Shown piece by piece: positions 6,131 to 56,342 of a stretch of DNA of 64,000 bases. Below the pieces are notes generated by a model. That model did no database searches and was not told where the DNA came from. It saw only the letters and a program-made list of their open reading frames with translations. A program made the translations under genes and the position numbers. Numbering within the stretch: the stretch's first letter is position 1; every line of letters begins with the position of its first letter. The stretch spans positions 1,461,695 to 1,525,694 of the forward strand of contig NW_011887298.1 in NCBI RefSeq assembly GCF_000151315.2, in the 5' to 3' direction. The DNA comes from Capsaspora owczarzaki ATCC 30864. Taxonomy: Eukaryota; Opisthokonta; Filasterea.

Positions 6131-7810
6131 ACTGCGGAGAAGGAAGACCTAACTTGTTTGTTTTTCGCTTTGCTTTGTTTGGTTTTTTTTTTTGCGCGCC
6201 AGAAACAAGACCCGACCGAATGGCACCCGGATACGACACCGTTCGTCACACCTTCGTCATCTCCACCAAGGAGTAGAGCAACATCCTTCTCGCTCCAGTC
6301 TGTGCTAAGTACCATGTCGGGCACCGAAGATCCCGAAAACGAGGTTGCCGAGTTGCTCAATCCGTCGCGCAATACCATCACTGCTCATTTGGCCACGCTG
6401 AGCAACTCGGCGGCGACCATGTATCCCTATTCAACGAGCAGTGCGGACACGGGTGTTGCCCATCGCTTTACTTCGTCGCGGGGCTCGTCGCTCGGATCGT
6501 CGCCATTCCTCGGCTCCGAGTTTGACGAGCACGACGTTGCCGCGCCGCCAGCGCAGCAGCCACACGGAGCCATTGCACCGGACGCGAGTCCGCCGATGCT
6601 GGGTGTGCCGCCACGAGCTCCCGCTACGCCGCCCAAGCCAAGCAGTACCGATCCCAGCGCGGCGGCGCATGCTGCTGCGTCGGCCCTGTTGTACAGCCCA
6701 GCGCACCGCACATCCGTGAGCGATACCATTGGCGACGTTATTGCCTCGGCGGTGAGTGGACTGCCGCCACCAACAAGCGCCTCGCTACCGGGATCTCCGC
6801 TTCACATGCCCAAGAGCTCCGCCGCTGCGGCACTGCCGCGGTCTGCCAGCTCGGATCCCTTGACGGATCTGGACTTCCACAGCAGCCCTCTCACGCACGA
6901 AACCAGGGCGCCCAGCATTGTGGAATCCGAGTACGCCGCGCTGCTCGTCCTGCAGCAGCAAGTGCAGCAACAACAACAGCGGCTCTTGCAACTCCAGCAG
7001 CTTCAACACCAACAGCAGCTTGCCAACCAGGAGCAATTGCTTGGACACCGACAGCAGCTCCTCCTCCCCGTCTCGCAGCCTCGTCAACCCCAGCCCGCAG
7101 CCTCGCAGCCTCGCTCCCGAGCCTCGTCGCACTCGTCCAAGACTTCTGCAGCCGCCCCTCCTCCTCCTCCGCCTCAGCCTGTTCGACCAACCCCACGGCA
7201 TCTTCACGTGTCGGCCGAGCAGCAACTCCAACACCAGCAAGCGTACAGCAACACGTCGGCTTTCACTCCTCTGCGGCAAGTGCCGGCATCCTTCGTGTCT
7301 CGCTCGTCGACCTCGTCCAGTGCTTCCACTCCACAGCCACCGTCTCTGTCCAACAGTGCATCGCGCGTTCCAAGAAGTGTCGCAGACTGGCACGTGGACA
7401 CTGCGCCGGCCGCCGCTGAAGTGACCATGGTTGGTGGATTGTCGTACAGCACGACACGCCGGCTCTCGTTCGCCCATGAAGCCGGGCCAATCGCTGCGTC
7501 GTCCAGCAGCGCGGGCCGTGCTAGCGCAACGACCTCCCATCGAAGGAGCACCTCCACGGCCTCGCTGCCAGATCTGGCCGTCATGGCCGGGGCACCCGCA
7601 AACGGCGCATTACGCAGTCGACGATCCTCCGGTGCCATGTCACGCGACGAGGCTGCCGCTGCCTCTGCCACCAAGCACAAAGTTGCGCTCCACGATGCCA
7701 TGCTTATTTCTCGCGCGATTCTTTCGCGGCACGACCCAGCTGTCGCACAGCCCGCATCGCGGCCTTCCTCCACCACGCCCAGTCGCAGCAGCCTGCTTTC
7801 GTTCTTTTAA
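5247..7810 (+). CDS. MDM34: Mdm34-like ERMES subunit (SMP domain)
   Basis: Exons 5247-5393, 5567-6022 and 6203-7810 give a 736-aa protein. The first 200 residues match the SMP (lipid-transfer) domain of yeast Mdm34/Mmm2: MAFRFNW at the start, LSILEICEIG after intron 1, then VPMEVRISAFRLNGVCVL and SFKSDPLKSVKVNTTFD, ending IEEQLRILVNHDLPRMVHLIS. In yeast, Mdm34 with Mmm1, Mdm12 and Mdm10 forms the ER-mitochondria tether that moves phospholipids, sitting on the mitochondrial outer-membrane side. The remaining 530 residues are disordered and rich in S, P, A and Q. Introns have normal gtaagc...tag and gtaatt...cag ends. Intron 2 (180 bp, containing a GT array) is a multiple of three and free of stops, so retained transcripts would still be translatable. 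The polyA signal AATAAA lies near 7933. Confidence 0.88.
6057..6129. repeat. (GT)n microsatellite, about 36 units, in MDM34 intron 2
   Basis: An uninterrupted alternating GT tract lies on the sense strand of the intron, between the donor at 6023 and a T-run before the acceptor at 6202. Alternating purine-pyrimidine DNA of this length can adopt Z-form. Read in the flanking frame it encodes alternating Cys-Val. Confidence 0.95.
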
Positions 7811-7989: not shown

Positions 7990-10406
7990 TTAGACGGGAA
8001 CAAGATTGGGTTCTTGCGCAGCTGATTCCTCAAGCATTGCTTGGAGCTCTGCGGCAACTTCGAACGCTGTTGGCCGACGTTCGGCGTCGTGCTGCCAACA
8101 CGCTTGCATCAGGGCGGTGAATCGAGGCGGGCAGTCGCTGGGAATGGACGGCCGCAACTTTTGTTCGCAGATGAGCAAGGCGAGGTACTGGTTGTTCCGT
8201 GGCAACCGATCAAACCACTTTGGCTGTGACGACGCTGACGCGTGCGTTGTAACATCCTGGAGCAACGGAGTGCGATCGTTCAGCGATTCCACGCGCGACC
8301 CGGGCAAGCTTCCAAAGATGCCAGAGTTTGTGAGCGATGAAGGCCCAGAGTTTGCGGTCGGGCGTCGGTACAGTGGGTCGTCATAGGGCACTTGGCCAGT
8401 GACAATCTCAAACAAGACCATGCCCAGCGAGTACACGTCCGACCTGTCTGTGAACATGCCGCTTGATATCACTTCTGGAGCAGACCAATTGACCGTTTCC
8501 GGGACTTGAACATTGTCCACATACAAAGAGAATGCGTTCGAAGAAGAAGAAGAAGAAGCAGATGCAGATGCAGAGCTTGAGGCGGCGGCAGCAGCATCGG
8601 ACGCAGGGTCGGTGTGTGTTTCCTGCTGCTGCTGCTGTTGCTGCTGCTGCAGTAGTGATGGACTATTTGACTTGAATGTTGCTCGGCGACCGGATTTGCC
8701 GGAATGAGACCGATCTGGAACGCGCTGTGAAAGCTCGAAATCAGACACTTTGGCAAGGCCGTCCACGCCAATCAAAAAGTTGCTCGACTTGAGGTCCATG
8801 TGCAAAATGCGCTGCTCGTGCAAAAACGCAATGCCTTTGGCGCAGTCGGTGGCGATTCTTAGCCGGGTAAACCAGTCCAGAGGCCGGGCGGAATCGCGCA
8901 GACGATCAAACAAGGAGCAGTCGCAGAGCTCCATGACGAGACAGAGGGACGGCGGCACAATGCACACGCCTTCAACCTTGACGATATTCGGGTGGTTGAG
9001 CGCGCTCAGCAGGGCGCTCTCGCGACAAAAGTTGCTAATGATGGCTGGCGTCAGGTCGACGCAAAACACAATCTTGATGGCAACCGGCCTGCCGTGCAGC
9101 TCGCCCCGGAAGACCTTGGACAAGCCTCCCATGCCGATAAAGTGGTTGGCGTCCATCGACAAGAAGGCATAGTTGATAATGTTGACGCCCTTGTGGAGCT
9201 CGTCCACGCGCGCCGCAAGCTCGCGCGCAGAGTGGGAGCTTAGCGAGGTGCCCAGCAGTGGCTGTGTAATACTGGCGCGATTCCGATCGGGCTGCGAGCC
9301 AGTCACGCTGCTATTGTTGTGGGTGCCGCTGGCGCGTTTGTTGTTGTGTTCACCACCGCCGCCCAATGACTGCGTGTCGTCGTGCCACGTCGACGAGTAT
9401 GGCTGGTAGCCAGAGTAGTGCGAGACGCGGTCCTCGTCGATCGAGACGGAGGCAGCGTCTGGGTCGTACGACGTGATCGAGTCGCGCGGGAACTGGGTCA
9501 TGGAGGGTCCGTTGGAAGGAGCAGCGGATGCGCGCCGGATGTCTGCATCTTCGACAGGGGCAGGCTGGTACAGACCCTGCCAGTACTCGGAGTCGTGCAG
9601 AAGGGTGCGATACACAACCAAGGGCTTGACGCAGCCAAAGAGGACCCACAGCACAAACATGGACAGACAGTCGCCTGCGTCAATCTCAAAGTACTCGAGC
9701 AGGATGGCAATGACGTACATGGAGCGCTCGCAAATCCAAAACACAGAGTAAACAAAGAGCGCCGGGCGCCGGAAGACGTGCGAGAGCGGAGCCAGCGCCA
9801 TCACGAGGTAAAAGACGATCGTGACAAACTCCCAGCCGAGCTGCAAGCCGAGCGACAGCGGGGTCTCTCCGAGATAGTACGCAAAGGTGTGAACCGTTGT
9901 GGTGATGACACCGCCCCAAATGACCGCGGCAATGCATGCGCGGATGACGGCGCGTGTGCCGCCACCCTGCTGCATGAGAAAGAAGGCAATGCCGTCGAGC
10001 ACAATGTGGTAAAAGCCCCATCCGGCGCCATACAGGATGCTGGCTGGGACGGCGTTCGGTCCGTCGATTTCGATGGACAGCCCTATGCTGATGGAGCCCT
10101 GGAAGAGGTCTGCGAATGCGAATGCGTACAAGGTCGCCATGTAAAACGGGAGAATGAGGCGTGCAGCCGCCACGCTGTCTCCCTTGAGTGCTAGTCGGGA
10201 CTGCTGGTGCAGCCAGAATACTATTACCAAGATCTGTAGGAGTAAGAGGAGGCAAGGGCAATTGAAACGGGGTGAGTAAAATGAATGTCTGAGATTTTTT
10301 TTCAGTTTCCCCAGGTCTCGTTCGTTGGCTGGTTCTGTTCAAGGCGAGCTTTTTGCGATCAACCATTGTGAACATTGTATTGCCAAACATGGCCTCGGTC
10401 TGAGCG

Positions 10407-10455
<49 letters not shown>

Positions 10456-11089
10456 GCCACGACACTTTTCATTGAGTTTTGCATTGCATTTCTTTGTTTT
10501 CAGTGTCTCTCTGCTGTCTGACTGGCTTTCATTCGTCCTCTGATGTCCAAAGGGAGGGAAGAAGCATTCCACTCCATCGATCACACGCCAGCCCTTAATG
10601 GGGGAAGCAGACTCCCCTCCCCTCCCCTCCTCGACTGCAAAGCGAGAGAGCGGTTTTGCTTTTGAATTCAATGGAAAAAAGCTGGTTTTGCATTGCATTG
10701 TCAATCCCATATGCAAAGAGTGGCTGTTTCCGCTCCCCCTGGTGACTCTCTCTCACTCTCTCTCGCTCTCACTCTGTCTCTGTCTGGCGCTCGCTTTCAT
10801 TGCGCTGAGGCTGGCGGACCCCCGGACAGTCCCTTCGCTTCCCCTTCACTGTGTGTGAACTTTGAAACCGCCCCCCTTCTACCTCTCTCTCGTCTCTCGG
10901 CTCTCGTCTCTCTCTCCAGTCCAGTCCAGTTACTCCCTTGTTGCAATGTAGCTCGTCGCTTTTGTTGCCTCGCTTTTGTTGGTTTACCGTGACAAACTGG
11001 ATGATGGCAAAGACAAACGACAGCAGGCCAATCTTGCCAATCGGCGCCCAAGTGATGAGCGTATGGCAGAAGCCGTCCGCCGTCGACAT
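7990..11089 (-). CDS. Seven-transmembrane protein with C-terminal TKL-like kinase domain
   Basis: Exons 10988-11089 and 7990-10233 (phase 0) give 781 aa. Residues about 18-250 hold seven hydrophobic segments; the first is split by the intron (GLLSFVFAIIQFVT, then ILVIVFWL). A disordered linker of about 140 residues follows, then a protein kinase at about residues 390-770. Kinase landmarks are the glycine loop GMGGLSKVF, VAIK, the alpha-C Glu in CRESALL, HMDLKSSNF in the catalytic loop, SDFELS in place of DFG, SAPEV for APE, and DRSDVYSLGMVLFEIVTG in subdomain IX. The overall look is that of tyrosine-kinase-like Ser/Thr kinases. The catalytic Asp, Lys and Glu are present, but HRD reads HMD and DFG reads DFE. 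About 70 residues rich in Q, A and S lie between DFE and APE. It is probably a membrane receptor or sensor with a cytosolic kinase. The ligand and the 7TM family are not recognised. Confidence 0.82.
10234..10987 (-). other. Intron 1 of the 7TM-kinase gene
   Basis: A 754-bp intron, donor gtaaac and acceptor ctacag on the minus strand. It holds a 45-base T run (10409-10453 on the plus strand) and CT-rich tracts near 10745-10790. No gene is seen inside it. The T run would read as poly(A) in the transcript, but there are no flanking direct repeats to argue for a retroposed insert. Confidence 0.75.
10409..10453. repeat. 45-base poly(T) run
   Basis: Homopolymer T on the plus strand in intron 1 of the 7TM-kinase gene. 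Length is read directly from the sequence; such runs are prone to sequencing and assembly error. Confidence 0.9.
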
Positions 11090-11360: not shown

Positions 11361-12790
11361 TCAGGACCGTTGTGCAAGAGCCGCTTGCAGTCGCTTGACT
11401 TCCTCCGTCAGCGCGCTGTTCTGCTGCTCAAGAACCTTGACGCGGTCTTCGAGCGTCGAAATGTACTCCTTCTTCTTTCTTCGGCACTCCTTGGCAGCCT
11501 CGCGGTTTTTTTGCAGGCGGCGCTGCTTTTTGTCCGCCGGTCGAGTGGTGGAGAATCCATGCTGAGATTCCGCGTCCGACGACGTGTCCTAGAGGTGACG
11601 ACAAGACCAAAAGAGCACACGACAAGAAAAAGAAGAAGAAGAAGAAGAAGCAGTTGGAAATCTGGCAAATGTTGTAAACCCAATGCAAGACTCTCACGAA
11701 CGTACATTGTGGTCATCGTCTTGCGCGTGCCATTGCGATGTTGCAGCAGCTGCTGCTGATGCTTGCTGCTGCTGCTGCTGCTGCTGTTGCTGGGATCGAG
11801 TGCTGCCTCGTGTGGCTGAAGCCGGAGGAGCAGTTGTCAGCGGAGTCGAGGGAAGCACTTGCATGATAAACTGAGGCGGTTGCCCATGTATCGGGATTGG
11901 TGCTGGCGGCTGGGCCCTGAAGACGGCGGGAGCATACTGGACAACCGTGGGAGTGTAGTCCAAGGCTGGCTGCCACGGCTGTTGTAGTGATTGTTGCGGT
12001 TGCTGTTGGTCTAGTAGTTTTTGCTGATGAGCTGGAACTGGTGGAAAGTGGTGGCCTGCCTGAGGCTCTGCGACACCTCGTGAGGCGGTATGCTCGCCAT
12101 TCAGCTCCGATTGAGCCTTCTCTTGCTTGTGCAGATCGTCGACCAGCGACAGGAATGACTGTCGCTTCATGAGCTCCGAGTCTGACGCCCTTCGCTCGAG
12201 CGAGTCCGATGCCACTGTCGCAAATTGCAATCAAAAACGGTCAAAATTCAATGAGTTAGTGTGAACAATATTGATGCACTCGATGTCTGAGAAATTGCGC
12301 GGTCTTTTTTTTTTTTTTTTTTTCTTTCTTTCAAGTTCGGAGTGCTTCAGCCAATCCAACCCCCGTGGTGAATGAGGGAGAGGGAGTGAGGGACTCTGCA
12401 AATCCAGCCAGCATGACAAAGTGACGCTGTGAGTGCGCGTGCGGTGGGACTTGCATGGAGTGCAGCAGCGAGTGAGTGAGTGCGGGAACATGGCCGACAG
12501 CACTACCCCAGCAGCCCCATCTGGTCACCTCTCCCTTGTCCCCAACGAAGGTGCTTTTTTGCTCAATGGCTCGAATGCCAAAGCGCATCCGTCATTTGGA
12601 GTTTGGGTTGGTCGGGGACGGGGGTTGAGCACTGAGCACTACTGAGGCCTTCCCTTTTAAACCTCCGTCTGCTCTCCCTTCTACTACTGCCCCCCCTGCT
12701 ACTCCTCTGCTTGCTTCTGGCTTTCTTACGAGTGCGATCCAGCTCGCCCAGGCTGACTCTGTTCTCGAGCAGATTGACATGCGCAGACAT
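11361..12790 (-). CDS. CREB/ATF-family bZIP transcription factor with a KID-like motif
   Basis: Exons 12730-12790, 11706-12214 and 11361-11588 give 265 aa, and all phases agree. The C-terminal bZIP (residues about 210-260) has the basic region QKNREAAKECRRKKKEY, nearly identical to CREB1/ATF1 (MKNREAARECRRKKKEY). It is followed by leucine heptads (LEDRVKVLEQQN), and the protein ends five residues after the last leucine. Near residue 45, after a PKA-type RRAS, comes KRQSFLSLVDDL. This matches the kinase-inducible domain core of CREB (RRPSYRKILNDL) in its basic pair, serine, aromatic and final hydrophobic-DL pattern. The middle is rich in Q and P and carries a polyQ run. It probably binds CRE-like sites as a dimer and may be controlled by phosphorylation of the KID-like serine; that last point is inference. 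Confidence 0.85.
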
Positions 12791-25958: not shown

Positions 25959-28900
25959 TTAATAATGTTGGTACGTCTCAGTGTTGGCCTCGAGAGCCTG
26001 GCGAAGCATCCACCAGACGCCGCAGAACACGAGAAGGCCGCAAAAGCGCGAAATGACGGCGCGCGTGTTGTCGCCTGGCGCAAGCAAGCTGACAATCAGC
26101 GCCGAGCTGTCGGAGGCAACCTCACTGACGGCAACAAACAGGCCGGTGGTGAAGGCGGCGTTGAGCAAGCGCCAGAAGCCACTGGTGCCGGGGATGAGCA
26201 CCAGAATGCCCTTCGTGTCGGCCGCGAGCCAGATGTGGAACTGGAGAAGGAAGAGTTCCAGCGAGAGCTGGCCAATGTAGGCAAAGAAGCGGCTGTACAC
26301 AGCCCGAGACCTGCCGGTCAGGTTGCGCAAAAAGGCAAAAGCGGCCACGAGGAAGGGCGACGAGAACGTGTGAATGTAGTTGCAGTAGGCCTTGTCCGTG
26401 CACGAGCGTGTGAACATGATGTACCAGCAAAAAATGCCAATCGACACAATGGACAGGATGGCCGAAGTGGCCGTGTTGAAAAGCAGACCCGAAAGCAGAG
26501 GGCCGGGAGGAGGCGGGGTTGTTCCAGGGCGAACTGCTGGTTGGTTGTCGTGGATGACGCCGTGCGACTTGGCGATTTGGTAGGCGTAGGCAATGAGCAT
26601 GCCATGAGCGACGATCTGCAATGTAGAAGCAAAGATAAAAATGATGAGAGCGAACTCAAACAATGCGATGCAGTAGAACGAGAGAACAGGCAAACACCAC
26701 CAACAACAACAACAAAAAAAGAACCAGCCGGAAAGATCCGTACAAAGCAATCGAGACCAGAGCGGAAGCGCCACTCGTACAGACTGTCGCTCACGCTGAA
26801 CAGCTCCTTGATCGGCCACCAGTCAAACAGGAACTGGAAGATGGGAAAGTCGTCGGCACTGGTGCTCTTGTAGTTGCCGCTGAACGGCAGCCAGACAATG
26901 GAGCAGATGGTAAAGAGCGCGAGGATGCGAGCTGGCGCATCGAGACCCGGGAAGCGCTTTTGCACGGCAGGAATGGACGGGAATGCCATGATGGCATACA
27001 CGACAAGGAACCAGAAGCTGGAAAGCGGGACAAAGTAGTAGAATTGGTAGGGCTTGTCCATGACCATGCACAGGCCGATGGTGAGAACGTTCAGACGCGT
27101 GAGCACCTGGATGATGCGCGTGATGCCAAACTGCTTCTTGGTGTAAAAGAAGGTAAAGTGGCCAAAGCCAGTCAGGAAGAGGTAGCTGGCAACAAAGACG
27201 CGCACAAGCATGTAGAGCGGCAGAACGGAGCTGCCGCCAAGGAAGTGGTAGATCAAAAAGACAATCTGCATCCAGCCCTTCCACTCGTCTGTCTGGTCGC
27301 GACTCAAAAAGGTCGGCGCCGTCTTGACATGGGTGAGTGTGCACCACCCAGCAACGAACATGACGCCAATCGACGCAATCAGGTCAAAGTGGGTGTAAAT
27401 CTTGCGTTCCTTGGGGAAGATGTGGGTGCGGTCACACAGGAATGCAAAGACAAGGACGAGGCCCAGCTGGGCCACAGGCATGGCAACGCTCAGCAGGTTT
27501 GGCGACGACAGCATGTGGCGCGCACGAGCCGTGGCCCCGAATGCAGACTCTGCGCCCGACGCAACTGCGCCACCGGTGTGGTGACGGGCGGCATACGAGC
27601 CTCCGAGCCAGCACACGAGCGCAAACAGCACGACGGCAAAGAAGACGTACTGCAGACCAGTGAGGGCGGGGTAGGGTGCGCAGCACGTCACGTCGTCGGG
27701 ACGGTCCCAGGCTTCGTGACGACGGTTGCAGAAGGCGTTGAGAATGACGTTCAGTTGCGCTTGCACGGCGGCGTCGGGAAAGTGGACGCCGTCGGTAGAG
27801 TCCTCGGCAAACGCCTTGCCAATGCTGCCAATGCTGCGAGAAATGAGCATGTTGGGCGCCAGGAAGCCGCCCTGCGTGGCAAGGTCGGCCGTGTGCGGAA
27901 GATCCGGGACAATCAAAGGCTCGAGCGCGAGGCGACCCGCGCGGTGCGGCAGGGGCTGCTGGTCGAGGTTGCCACCGCGAGCGCTCTCTTCCGCGCGCTC
28001 GTGCAAGCTGTGGGCAAAGTCCTCGGCCACGGGCAAAACGGCCTGGTTGAATTGGGCAATGCGCTCGTTCGTGATGGCCTGGCGATCGGGCCGGAGGTTG
28101 GCTTCGTTGACATTGAGAGTGACGCCCCAGAAAATGTCCAGATCCGCGCTGCTCTGTTCCCAGAGCGAGGAATGGGCGTCAAGCCACTTGGCACTGACCC
28201 CGGGACGTGGGCGGTCGCCCGCAGCATGGCCGTCGAGATCATTCAGGAATTGCAGGGAATCGCGATAGACTTCGGTCAGCTGCTGCTCGACCTGGTCGGG
28301 GGTGATCAAATCGCGCACATCCCAAAGGCCGACGCCGTGCACAAGCAAGCTCGGGCGCGTGAAGGCGCCTTGCGGTGCTGTCGTCGTGCCATCGTCTGCT
28401 TGCTGCGCATCGTCCAACAGGTTTGGGTTGTGCTCGCCGGCAAGCAGCAGGCGGCTGGAGATGGTCGCCAGGGACTGGTTTGCGACAAACGGAAGCCACA
28501 GAAAGTCAAGGGTGACGTTGTGACCGTGCCTGTTGAGGCCGAGCTCGTGTGCAAACGTCAAGTCCGAGTTGACCTTCTTGCCCGGGACGAGCATCGGGGA
28601 CGGGGTGGCAACGGTGACGGACATGTCCGTGTGGTAGTCCTGCTGCGTGACTTGCGGGACGGCGCTCTTGTCGAGCAGGGCAATCATGCCAAGCCAGAGT
28701 TGCCGCGCGCGCGAGTCGCCAGCAAAGACAATGCGTCGCCCGGCGAGACAGGCGTGCGCAGCTGTTGCGGCCGAGCCAAACTCGCGCGCCATGCAGCCCT
28801 GTGGGCGCCACGACTTTGCGCCTGACTTTGGGTTGATCTGGACGCTTCCCTCTGCGTTGAGCAGGTAGTTGCACGAGTCGTATCCTGTTTCGAGGTTGAG

Positions 28901-29614
28901 TTGGATGGAAGAGCGACAACGGTGAGTGTCAGTGAGTGTCAGTATTGCGACTTCCTCCTCCTCCCCCCCCTCCTTTCTTTGATGATTTGGGGGGTGGCTA
29001 GTCTTTGACTGAGTTTGAATGAGGCTGTTGGGTTTTGTTGAGGGTCGGTGGTCAGGGGTCGGTGGTCAGGGTGGGAGTGAACTGTGAAGGATTTGGATTC
29101 GCCGTGTGCTCAATCTCTCTCTCTCGATCTCCCCACTCAAGCGCTCCATTCCACTCGTGCGCGTTCATCACAGAGTAGAGTGCTGCTGCTTGTCCTGTAC
29201 CCAGCCACTGCTCCCCCTACTCCCACTCCCACTCCCACTCTCTCCCATTCCCCTCCCCAGCAACAGCAATAAAAAGTATAAAAATCAAAAAGAGCCATCC
29301 CGCCCACTCTGCTTTCAACCGAAGGGGAAGGACCACAACCGCTCCCCCCCTCAACTGCCCCATCTCGCTCTGAAGAGTGGTGAACGCAATTCAAAATGGA
29401 CCTGCTTGCCTGAGGAGAGGCGGAGGAGGTGCAGCACGAGGAAGACGGCCGCGGCAATCAGAAGCCCGCGCTTGACCTGCGGCCACGACACACCGCCCAC
29501 CAACGAGGACAGCCCAGCAGAGGACGATGAGGAGTTGTTGTTGTTGTTGCGTGCTGCAATCATCGCAACCATCCGCTCGCCGCCGGCAGTCGACACGGGC
29601 AGAGACGCCGACAT
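25959..29614 (-). CDS. CASD1: CASD1-like sialate/glycan O-acetyltransferase
   Basis: Exons 29410-29614, 26744-28884 and 25959-26615 give 1000 aa (human CASD1: 797). An N-terminal hydrophobic segment near residue 53 (GLLIAAAVFLVLHLL) anchors a luminal PC-esterase/SGNH domain. It shows YDSCNYLL, then the nucleophile block IVFAGDSRARQLW near residue 121, and the Asp-His pair in DSTDGVHF. The C-terminal half is the multi-pass acyltransferase region, with stretches close to human CASD1: RDQTDEWKGWMQIVFLIYHF, MDKPYQFYYFVPL and LLQFHIWLAADTKGILVLIP. In animals CASD1 transfers acetyl from acetyl-CoA to CMP-sialic acid in the Golgi; fungal relatives acetylate capsule or wall glycans, so the acceptor here is unknown. 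Intron 1 appears to be GC-AG (CAG|GCAAGC), the only donor that keeps the frame with the conserved next exon. Confidence 0.9.
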
Positions 29615-53201: not shown

Positions 53202-55463
53202 TCAAATCCAGGCAAAGGTGATGCGATCCGTTCGCATGGTGCGCATGAGCTCGCCATAGTGCTCGGACTCCAAGAAACGGGGGTAGGACATTTTGCGCAT
53301 CAGGAAAAAGACGGCCTTTTGCGCCTCGTCAAAGACTTCGCGAGTGGGCGCGGTCATGCGAGGGGTGACGGCATTTCGCACCTTGGAGTCAATGTTCACT
53401 TCGTGGGGAGCACCGGGCGCGACATGCTCGTCGTAGATGAGGTGTGCAAAGACGCTCACGGCGTTGGCCTCGACCACGCGCAGACACTCGACCGCGAGCC
53501 AGAACTTGATGTGCTCGTCGCTGAAATCCTTCTTGAGGAAGCGTTGGAAGGCACGCAGCTGGGTCGGGTTGCAAATCAATTCGCGGAAAATGTTGGACTG
53601 CTCCTTGCCAGTCAGCTGGGGCGAGTTGGTAGATGACACTGAGCCCGAGGATCGCTCCAGATTTTTGGGAGTGCTGGTGCCAGTGCTGGAGGGAGACTGG
53701 TCAAAGTCGTGGTCGAGGTCGCTGAAGGAATTGGACTCGGTCATACCGGCCATGCCCGCAATGACGTTCGAGCCGTTCAGGGCGTCGAGGTCGTCTTGCA
53801 AGATCTCGTCCGAGGCATCCTGTGCAAACCGGAAGGGGATCTTGTCGTTGCGGAAGGAGTTGATTTCAGGCGCAACGCTGCACACGTGCCCGTCCATGAC
53901 GAGCAGCTCGGAAATCTTGACTGCGTGCGCTTCGCTCTCGGCGACACCGTCGTCGATGAGCTTGGCGACGAGCTCCTTGCCGAAAAACACATTCTTGTAC
54001 GTCTTGAAGCGGTACGAGCGGTTTTTGGTTGGCAGGTTGGCCTTGAGATACTTTGCGCCGACACCAAGGGACTGGCGCACCAGGCCGGGGATGGTGCTGG
54101 CAGGCACGCCGGGGGCGACCGTGACGTGCTCGAGGTTGAGAGGCGAGAGGTCGCGCACCCATTGCGGGGTCTCACCAGCGTCCTCCAAGGCGTCACCGTC
54201 GTCATGCTGCTGCTGCTGCTGCTGCTGTTGGTGATGTTCGGCGGCCGCTCGGTCGACGTCGGCGGAAAACCGATAGAGCACGCGCGAGTTGTCAAACGGC
54301 TCGCTCTTGGACACGTGCTCAATGATGCCGGCGTCCATCATGGCTTGGCCAACACGAATGGCGAGCTTTTCGTCGTCAACGACACCTTCCGTCACCAACC
54401 AGGCGACAGCCTCGCAGCCGAGGAAGCAGCGGCGGTGCGTGCGGAGTCGCCACCGGCGGTCGTGAATGTTGATTTCTCGGTGCATGTTGGCGGCCACAAT
54501 GCGCAAGTTGACAATGCCTTCCTTGGGCATCTTGGTGGCCGTGACTTGGTCGCGCAGACGCAGCAAGATGGCCTCGCCCAGGCCGCCCAGACTGCTGGCA
54601 ATGCTGTCGACCAGCTCGGTCGGCTTTTCGTGCACAAAGAAGCGGTAGTAGGCGTTAATGTCGGAGCGGAAGTTGCCGTCAGCGGCGGACGCGGGCACTT
54701 CCTTTTCGCCAGCCGTGATCGGGGCCAGCAGCTTTTCGCGGAGCATGAGCGTGGCAATCTGTGTGGCGTGCAGCTCGTCCTCGGCAATCGCGCGGGCAAT
54801 GAGCCATGCAATCACCTCGCGTCCGAGCACGGTGCGGATGCACGCCTTGGCAAACTTGGTGCCGAGGCGGCGGTTTTTGACGTGCACGTCGTCGACGAGC
54901 AGGCTGGTCAGGGTGACGAGGGCGCGCTTTGTTTCCCGCACGAGGTGGTCGTTGGAGCCCGTCTTGAAGACCTTGAGGCAGATGGGGGAGAGGGCGCCAA
55001 TGGTGAGGGCGTACTGCGACCACTTCATCGAGGCGAGGACGGTGCCAAACTGGCGGTCTTCGAGCGAGGCAATCTCCGTGGTGGATGATGGGTTGGACAG
55101 ATTGCTGCCGCCGCCGCCGCTATTGTTTCCTGCTGGGGACGCTGCTGGCGACGCGTGCGCTGTTTCTTCGTGGGCGGCAAAGCGGTAGTAGAGAAAGTCG
55201 TTTCTGAAGCCAGCCTCGCGCGTGACGTGGTGGAAGACGCCGTCCTCGAGGAGCGCCTGGCCCATGTCGACGGCCTCGTCCTCGTTGGCAGCGAGGCCCT
55301 TGGAGGTCATGTAGACGACTGCCTCGCGGCCGACAAAGCACTGCTTGTGGGTGCGGAATCGGAACTTGCGGTCCTTGATGTCGAGGCCGGCGAGCATGCG
55401 CATGGCCGCGTCCTTGAGCTTTTCCTGTTGCTGCGGCGTGCGCGTTGTTGCCGAGTAGACCAT
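53202..55463 (-). CDS. Protein with four DEP domains and a C-terminal RGS domain
   Basis: One exon, 753 aa from the ATG at 55463. Four DEP-like units can be read. DEP1 (about residues 20-105) has FRTHKQCFVGREAVVYM and ends FRNDFLYYRF. DEP2 (about 165-285) is divergent, with TVLGREVIAWLI and FRSDINAYYRFF. DEP3 (about 314-405) has LRTHRRCFLGCEAVAWLV, and DEP4 (about 460-550) has FKTYKNVFFGKELVAKLI. The RGS domain (about 615-751) has FRELICNPTQLRAFQRFL, FSDEHIKFWLAVE and the final helix SYPRFLESEHYGELM. RGS domains speed GTP hydrolysis on G-alpha; DEP domains bind receptors and membranes. Yeast Sst2 has DEP-DEP-RGS, and animal R7 proteins have DEP-GGL-RGS; no GGL is seen here. The frame stays open upstream to 55745 but without an ATG. 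Confidence 0.88.
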   Translation of the reverse strand: MVYSATTRTPQQQEKLKDAAMRMLAGLDIKDRKFRFRTHKQCFVGREAVVYMTSKGLAANEDEAVDMGQALLEDGVFHHVTREAGFRNDFLYYRFAAHEETAHASPAASPAGNNSGGGGSNLSNPSSTTEIASLEDRQFGTVLASMKWSQYALTIGALSPICLKVFKTGSNDHLVRETKRALVTLTSLLVDDVHVKNRRLGTKFAKACIRTVLGREVIAWLIARAIAEDELHATQIATLMLREKLLAPITAGEKEVPASAADGNFRSDINAYYRFFVHEKPTELVDSIASSLGGLGEAILLRLRDQVTATKMPKEGIVNLRIVAANMHREINIHDRRWRLRTHRRCFLGCEAVAWLVTEGVVDDEKLAIRVGQAMMDAGIIEHVSKSEPFDNSRVLYRFSADVDRAAAEHHQQQQQQQQHDDGDALEDAGETPQWVRDLSPLNLEHVTVAPGVPASTIPGLVRQSLGVGAKYLKANLPTKNRSYRFKTYKNVFFGKELVAKLIDDGVAESEAHAVKISELLVMDGHVCSVAPEINSFRNDKIPFRFAQDASDEILQDDLDALNGSNVIAGMAGMTESNSFSDLDHDFDQSPSSTGTSTPKNLERSSGSVSSTNSPQLTGKEQSNIFRELICNPTQLRAFQRFLKKDFSDEHIKFWLAVECLRVVEANAVSVFAHLIYDEHVAPGAPHEVNIDSKVRNAVTPRMTAPTREVFDEAQKAVFFLMRKMSYPRFLESEHYGELMRTMRTDRITFAWI

Positions 55464-56342
55464 GGTTTTTTGTTTTGTGTGTGTGTGTGTTTTGAGTTTA
55501 TGAGATGCGGTTTGTTTCTTGGACGCTTGTTTGAGTTGAGTCGCTTTTCTTGGAGACTTGAGCTTTTGAGTTTGACGTTGGGTTGGCGCGGTTTTGTTGG
55601 GTTTTTGATTTGTGTTTGGTTTTTTGTGGTCTGCTGTTGTTTTTGCGGTGGTGACTGTTTTAGAAAAGACAAGAGCGAGACAAAGAGTGAGCAGCAATAA
55701 CAGGAGCACAGCCAGAGTGAGTGGAAACAGCAGAGGCACAAACAAGCAAAAAGGGAGGAGAGGGGGAGGAGAGGGGGAGGAGAGGGAGGAGAGGGAGCAG
55801 AGAGTGGGGCGTGCGTGGGTGATAAAGCGAGTGTGGTTTCAAGAGTGTGATTTGATGACAGACTTGACGATCACGCACGAGGGAGAGAGAGAAAGAGAGA
55901 GAGAGAGACATAGCAACAAAAGAGCGCAAGTGAAGTGGAGAGGAGTAGGGGGATATGGATGAGATATAGAGACAGACAAGGGGGAGAGAGCGAGAGAGGG
56001 TGGCACACACGATAAAAAAACCGCATAAAAAAACAACATCAAACAAACAAACAGGACAGGCGATCGGACGTGACCCCCCTCCCCCTGCCCCCTTTCTCGC
56101 TTTGGAGTCGTGGTTCATGGGTGAAGGAGGCATGAGTGCGGGGTGAGAGTGAGTGAGAATGAGTGAGCGAGTGAGAGGAGGGAAAGAAGCGGGAGATCAA
56201 ACAAAGAGATACAACCAAAAACAACGAAAAAGCAATAGTCTTCAGCCAAACATAACAACCGAAAAAGTGAAAGTGACCAAAAGAGAAGACTGAACAAACA
56301 GAGAACAAGATGAACAAGAAGAAGAAGAAGGTGATGTGGTGG

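Follow-up and report, generated by a model that had tools for sequence, protein, structure and literature searches.

A gene of Capsaspora owczarzaki predicted to join a seven-pass membrane domain to a TKL-type protein kinase

Structure and surroundings of the gene

The window analysed here is a stretch of 64,000 nucleotides from Capsaspora owczarzaki ATCC 30864, a single-celled filasterean related to animals (contig NW_011887298.1, positions 1,461,695 to 1,525,694), and all positions given below are counted from its first letter. A gene on its minus strand occupies 7990-11089, the exact extent given in the first-pass annotation, with the ATG starting at 11089 and the stop ending at 7990, and its predicted product is a protein of 781 aa. 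Exon 1 (10988..11089, minus strand; 102 nt, residues 1–34) encodes a short N-terminus and the first half of the first transmembrane segment (TM1), and exon 2 (7990..10233, minus strand; 2244 nt including the stop, residues 35–781) encodes the rest of TM1, TM2–TM7, a linker and a kinase domain. The putative intron between them (10234..10987, minus strand; 754 nt) has GT-AG borders, is in phase 0 and lies within TM1. Simple repeats abound in this long intron, among them an uninterrupted run of 45 T residues at 10409-10453.

The two exons are presumably spliced to each other. Their joining would turn the two halves of TM1 into a continuous hydrophobic helix, with LLSFVFAIIQFVT before and ILVIVFW after the intron site; the earlier suggestion that an intron interrupts the first segment in a phase that keeps the helix agrees with the phase 0 and with the hydrophobic run, which would be continuous after the splice. 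If exon 1 is disregarded and the frame of exon 2 is followed upstream, a stop is encountered after 36 codons, with no Met in between, and the earliest in-frame ATG of exon 2 corresponds to residue 66. In terms of codon usage, exon 1 scores 0.94 bits per codon, more than all 652 intron windows of the same length (maximum 0.41). This score supports exon 1 but falls short of proving it, because windows from the T/C-rich 5' flank score at least as high in 11% of cases. It might accordingly be asked whether the 5' part of the gene model is wrong, so that TM1 comes from another exon or translation starts within exon 2 and yields fewer segments. The shortness of exon 1, the length and repeat content of the intron and the matching scores in the 5' flank speak for such an error. 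On the other hand, the splice yields an unbroken hydrophobic helix in frame, the ATG at residue 66 falls inside TM2, and the stop of a gene on the same strand (11361-11363) leaves 271 bases upstream. We therefore consider a misplaced 5' end to be quite improbable.

Exon 2 consists of 747 stop-free codons, with TM2–TM7 and the kinase together in a single frame. Were the membrane part and the kinase two separate products, these would have to arise through alternative promoters or through splicing within exon 2; given that TM2 through the kinase can be read in a single frame with neither stop nor intron, this is very hard to credit.

The upstream gene just mentioned encodes a bZIP transcription factor (minus strand, 11361-11600 and beyond; bZIP_1, E 2.3e-18), and the 271 bases lie between its stop and the ATG of the 7TM-kinase gene. 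The downstream neighbour is a long plus-strand frame ending at 7810, arranged tail to tail with the 7TM-kinase gene. Farther away in the window, a minus-strand frame at 53205-55838 contains four DEP stretches (E 5.3e-60) and an RGS domain (E 1.9e-28) and is likely to encode a regulator of G protein signalling. Another minus-strand region, at 26321-29065, carries a Cas1_AcylT ten-span acyltransferase domain (E 3.2e-110), which is preceded by a weak NXPE-like stretch scoring below the cut-off of the NXPE family.

The seven-pass part

Transmembrane segments were placed at about residues 18–42, 57–82, 95–122, 127–152, 161–188, 191–216 and 220–246. The second half of TM1 and TM2–TM7 thus occupy 9598..10233 of the minus strand (residues 35–246), an assignment based on hydropathy, loop charge and a low-confidence structure model. 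Residues 1–258 contain seven non-overlapping segments of 19 residues with a Kyte-Doolittle mean of at least 1.25, a cut-off that was chosen after the weakest segment (TM3, mean 1.27) had been seen; TM6 is also among the weaker ones (1.56), and only five of the seven survive a stricter cut-off of 1.6. When the whole protein was shuffled 500 times, seven segments within the first 258 residues were never obtained (0/500), the maximum being six, reached once. Hydropathy alone is unspecific, because the cut-off of 1.25 also yields two segments in residues 259–781, which fall in the N-lobe of the kinase. The topology score, which has no calibrated threshold, does not by itself favour seven segments over fewer. 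A single-sequence structure model of the exon 2 part contains seven helices, the shortest of 16 and the longest of 29 residues, at a pLDDT (49.9) that makes it uninformative on the fold. The first-pass annotation had read the locus as seven segments, a linker and a kinase in one gene, and this reading is borne out by the frame, the hydropathy and the shuffles.

In a model with the N-terminus outside and the C-terminus inside, six K/R residues fall in the inner loops between TM1 and TM7 (3, 1 and 2) and none in the outer ones, and the kinase is consequently predicted to sit in the cytosol. An extracellular kinase, which the first-pass annotation had regarded as incompatible with its proposal, is thus the opposite of what the charge pattern predicts. 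Residues 1–246 contain 11 K/R in all. Four of these fall within the segments as drawn and do not enter the loop total, namely R204 in TM6, K237 in TM7 and two at segment ends, K19 (TM1, outer end) and R132 (TM4, inner end). Beyond TM7, the opening 59 residues of the tail have four K/R versus nine D/E. In this topology little of the chain lies outside: some 17–18 residues precede TM1, and the outer loops measure 16, 17 and 4 residues, so that the 7TM-kinase model has no room for a separate extracellular ligand domain.

In order to find relatives of the 7TM part, we compared it with several sequence collections. No Pfam family and no chain among the PDB sequences matched at E values up to 10, and a search of the Capsaspora genome (27.5 Mb, 29 contigs) at E values up to 1 retrieved only the two exons of the gene itself. 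Pattern searches with the exon 2 part of the domain gave 9 matches in viral contigs and 25 in prokaryote genomes, none of which was confirmed as a relative. Alignment with hhalign to the adhesion 7TM domains of Capsaspora (five of the ten 7tm_2 matches of a genome that also has Dicty_CAR matches, partial 7tm_2 ones being left out) gave nothing useful, the probability being 0.2 of 100 in a comparison that had no control. Within residues 1–260, cysteines occur only at positions 8, 134, 202, 223 and 235, which we read as the lack of a TM3/ECL2 pair. An AD in TM2, a Trp in TM4 and a Pro in TM7, which resemble class A or cAMP-type receptors, were given no weight. The earlier statement that the 7TM family cannot be recognised therefore holds, as no Pfam family fits. 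A domain that is unrecognised in such searches is not for that reason unique, and the absence of matches is compatible with a GPCR.

The seven-pass part could instead be a transporter-like, channel-like or lipid-modifying domain that carries the kinase to the membrane and is perhaps regulated by it. This would agree with the failure of every GPCR model in Pfam to match, with the hhalign value of 0.2 obtained (without control) against the adhesion domains of the same genome, with the absence of a cysteine pair at the TM3/ECL2 position and with the small size of the outer part, in which a separate ligand domain could not fit. Yet seven segments with an N-out/C-in charge pattern are the usual topology of receptors, and other fusions of 7TM domains to kinases have been named GPCRs in the available parts of the papers describing them (PMC12716839, PMC5784254). 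A domain of this non-receptor kind appears to us rather unlikely.

The linker and the kinase domain

The seven segments are followed by a Ser/Thr-rich linker with no Pfam domain (9154..9597, minus strand; residues 247–394) and by a protein kinase domain of TKL type (8011..9153, minus strand; about residues 395–775), recognised by matches to Pfam and to PDB sequences. The Pfam matches are to PF07714 (PK_Tyr_Ser-Thr, E 6.8e-45) and PF00069 (Pkinase, E 1e-40). With 240 distinct PDB sequences matching at E values up to 1e-20, sequence similarity among solved kinases is greatest to Roco4 (E 6.5e-34) and MLK4 (E 1.9e-32), then to MAP3K9, CTR1 and MAP3K12. All five belong to the tyrosine-kinase-like (TKL) group, and ABL ranks below the TKL kinases. 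The phmmer alignment to Roco4 breaks twice, at query positions 258–335 and 376–440, and these gaps mark two insertions. The first is a low-complexity stretch of poly-Q, poly-A and poly-S in the activation segment (8506..8703, minus strand; about residues 545–610), where the distance from DFE to APE amounts to 87 residues; the second lies in the C-lobe (8200..8388, minus strand; about residues 650–712).

The kinase motifs, as we assign them, occur in the order GMGGLSKVF (glycine loop), VAIK, RESAL, HMDLKSSN, SDFELS and SAPE; RESAL presumably supplies the glutamate of helix alpha-C. Retained are the catalytic Lys of VAIK, the catalytic Asp of HMD (D514), the Asn of KSSN, the magnesium-binding Asp of DFE and SAPE. 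The activity of the kinase is nevertheless uncertain, because HMD replaces HRD, DFE replaces DFG and a Ser takes the place of the third Gly of the glycine loop. The same three departures, together with the interruption of the C-lobe by two long insertions, would suit a kinase that is weak or dead, in which case the protein would be a seven-pass receptor or scaffold binding its partners through the kinase fold. Two observations argue the other way: the residues that bind ATP and magnesium or take part in catalysis are retained, and HLD replaces HRD at six of the 17 kinase loci of the genome with a recognised loop, so that the loss of this Arg alone is no mark of a dead kinase. A weak or inactive kinase is, in our judgement, unlikely.

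As for specificity, a DLKxxN loop points to Ser/Thr kinases, and we place a Thr shortly before APE; with HMDLKSSN and this Thr, the domain looks Ser/Thr-specific. A Thr before APE is used as a criterion of Ser/Thr specificity in the available part of the Dictyostelium kinome paper (PMC1420674). The domain is not of the tyrosine kinase group, since it has HMDLKSSN versus HRDLAARN at four other kinase loci of the genome (L001–L004) and its best PDB matches are TKL kinases. Nor is it a PIP kinase: its Pfam matches are to PK_Tyr_Ser-Thr and Pkinase, and none of those listed is to PIP5K. No DEP domain was detected in the protein by Pfam.

To the best-scoring other kinase in the genome the domain is 40% identical over 145 residues, so that it is no recent duplicate of any other kinase detected in this genome. 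At most one membrane segment (cut-off 1.6) precedes the kinase at the 17 loci with a recognised kinase loop, each of which extends only 1500 bases past its match. These come from a small sample of 19 loci (L001–L008 and L012–L022; L013 overlaps L006 and L015 overlaps L005), most of them chosen by likeness to the 7TM kinase, set against 150 kinase matches scored and 176 counted in the genome. Six short kinases in the sample (L016–L019, L021 and L022), spread over several contigs, have near-identical loops that read HLDLKT, not HRD. Two PIP-kinase regions (L031 and L032) were inspected by eye in three frames of one strand, and no fused 7TM domain was evident; the GPCR-PIPK named for Capsaspora in PMC5784254 was thus not found within these two regions. 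The genome sequence used for these searches contains exact matches to both Capsaspora GAPDH qPCR primers of PMC9170242, which face each other at a distance of 532 bases, long for qPCR, and it matches the CoSrc2 N-terminus of PMC6001378 at 25 of 25 residues. A 90-base coYki arm and one coYki primer of PMC9170242 had no match in it, perhaps because part of the genome is missing there; on balance the sequence is taken to be that of Capsaspora owczarzaki.

Interpretation and comparison with known 7TM-kinase fusions

At the sequence level, the gene has an open frame, seven hydrophobic segments, an inside-positive charge pattern and a kinase with its catalytic residues. By architecture, the predicted protein is a 7TM-TKL fusion, of a kind known from other lineages. 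The reading that we prefer, with a probability of roughly 0.6, is that of a single membrane protein composed of a seven-pass domain, a flexible linker and a cytosolic TKL kinase of Ser/Thr type, working as a receptor-like kinase. We infer that the kinase would face the cytosol, be activated by the 7TM part in a receptor role and act on substrates there. A small or membrane-borne cue might alter the packing of the seven helices, and the altered packing would pair the kinase domains or free them from an inhibited state. The kinase could then phosphorylate itself, for which the Ser/Thr-rich linker and the insertion in the activation segment are plausible sites, and also a cytosolic target, perhaps acting in the manner of a MAP3K, as its MLK relatives do.

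To the knowledge of the authors of PMC12716839, as stated in the available part of that paper, no GPCR-TK, GPCR-TKL or GPCR-K has been functionally characterised. Capsaspora can be transfected and one gene has been disrupted in it, according to the accessible portions of PMC6001378 and PMC9170242. In such a manipulable organism, a single-copy gene would allow a direct test of the idea that a 7TM domain turns on the kinase fused to it.

The two surveys with Capsaspora in their scope (PMC5784254 and PMC12716839) give no such protein-kinase fusion for it in the parts available, and the accessible text of PMC10445921, PMC4053784 and PMC3019232 contains nothing on 7TM-kinase fusions of Capsaspora. 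Among the matches listed in a search of titles and abstracts in the open literature, supplements and closed journals being beyond its scope, there was likewise no 7TM-kinase fusion in Capsaspora. The validation described in the available part of PMC12716839 relied on GPCR matches, seven segments and structure, other families being sought with known members, so that a 7TM domain matching no model could escape it. For Filasterea in general, a survey that starts from established 7TM models might overlook the fusion, since its 7TM part matches none in Pfam. The protein described here would extend 7TM-TKL fusions to Filasterea, with a 7TM part that is unrecognised, and, if the reading is correct, that lineage would have its first reported example. 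As a tentative proposal, at somewhat less than even odds, we entertain a separate origin, in which a 7TM domain of Filasterea with no recognised relatives was fused to a TKL kinase independently of the corresponding events in amoebozoans, oomycetes and choanoflagellates. Near the origin of animals, seven-pass receptors would then have acquired a kinase of their own on at least one further occasion.

The first-pass annotation had called the architecture rare, which stands, and had suggested that this may be a poorly described receptor class; by architecture alone the class is not new, the kind having been described already, as the parts available of PMC1420674, PMC5784254, PMC6033456 and PMC12716839 indicate. 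In the kinome of Dictyostelium, seven segments are joined to a kinase in two proteins, 7TMK1, of the TKL group, and 7TMK2 (PMC1420674, in part). The Capsaspora protein shares with both the seven segments and the kinase, and with 7TMK1 also the TKL group. 7TMK1 is reported to be close to SplA and possibly to phosphorylate Tyr; in the Capsaspora kinase a Thr precedes APE, and the solved structures most similar to it are Roco4 and MLK.

Phytophthora infestans has 17 GPCR-TKLs, eight of them with a DEP domain after the kinase; the same mBio paper, in the part available, reports homologues of GPCR-TKLs in amoebozoans and no evidence for them elsewhere, and names a GPCR-PIPK in Capsaspora (PMC5784254). 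Possible working modes of such proteins are set out in the accessible part of a PLoS Pathogens review (PMC6033456). Like the oomycete and amoebozoan GPCR-TKL bigrams of these two papers, the Capsaspora protein has an N-terminal 7TM domain and a C-terminal TKL kinase predicted to be intracellular. It differs from the P. infestans proteins, which come from many genes and carry DEP in eight of 17 cases, in that it lacks DEP and its 7TM part is present in one copy.

Among holozoans, the available part of an eLife paper of 2025 (PMC12716839) describes acanthoecid GPCR-TKL/K proteins, a cluster of 176 receptors of which 92 have a kinase, as the first GPCR-kinase fusion in holozoans to the knowledge of its authors; it also reports GPCR-TKs from choanoflagellates and sponges and from no other holozoans, the Capsaspora proteome being in its sampling. 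The Capsaspora protein resembles the acanthoecid proteins as a holozoan 7TM domain with a C-terminal TKL or other non-tyrosine kinase, a likeness of architecture. What defines the acanthoecid cluster is its 7TM sequence, and no group other than acanthoecids is reported to have it. With the GPCR-TKs it likewise shares a holozoan 7TM domain and a C-terminal kinase; these are tyrosine kinases, whereas the Capsaspora domain is a TKL kinase with a catalytic loop of Ser/Thr type. Finally, RpkA/GPCR-PIPK, reported from Capsaspora in the accessible part of PMC5784254, is also a 7TM domain fused to a catalytic kinase; proteins of that type carry a lipid kinase, whereas the one described here carries a protein kinase.
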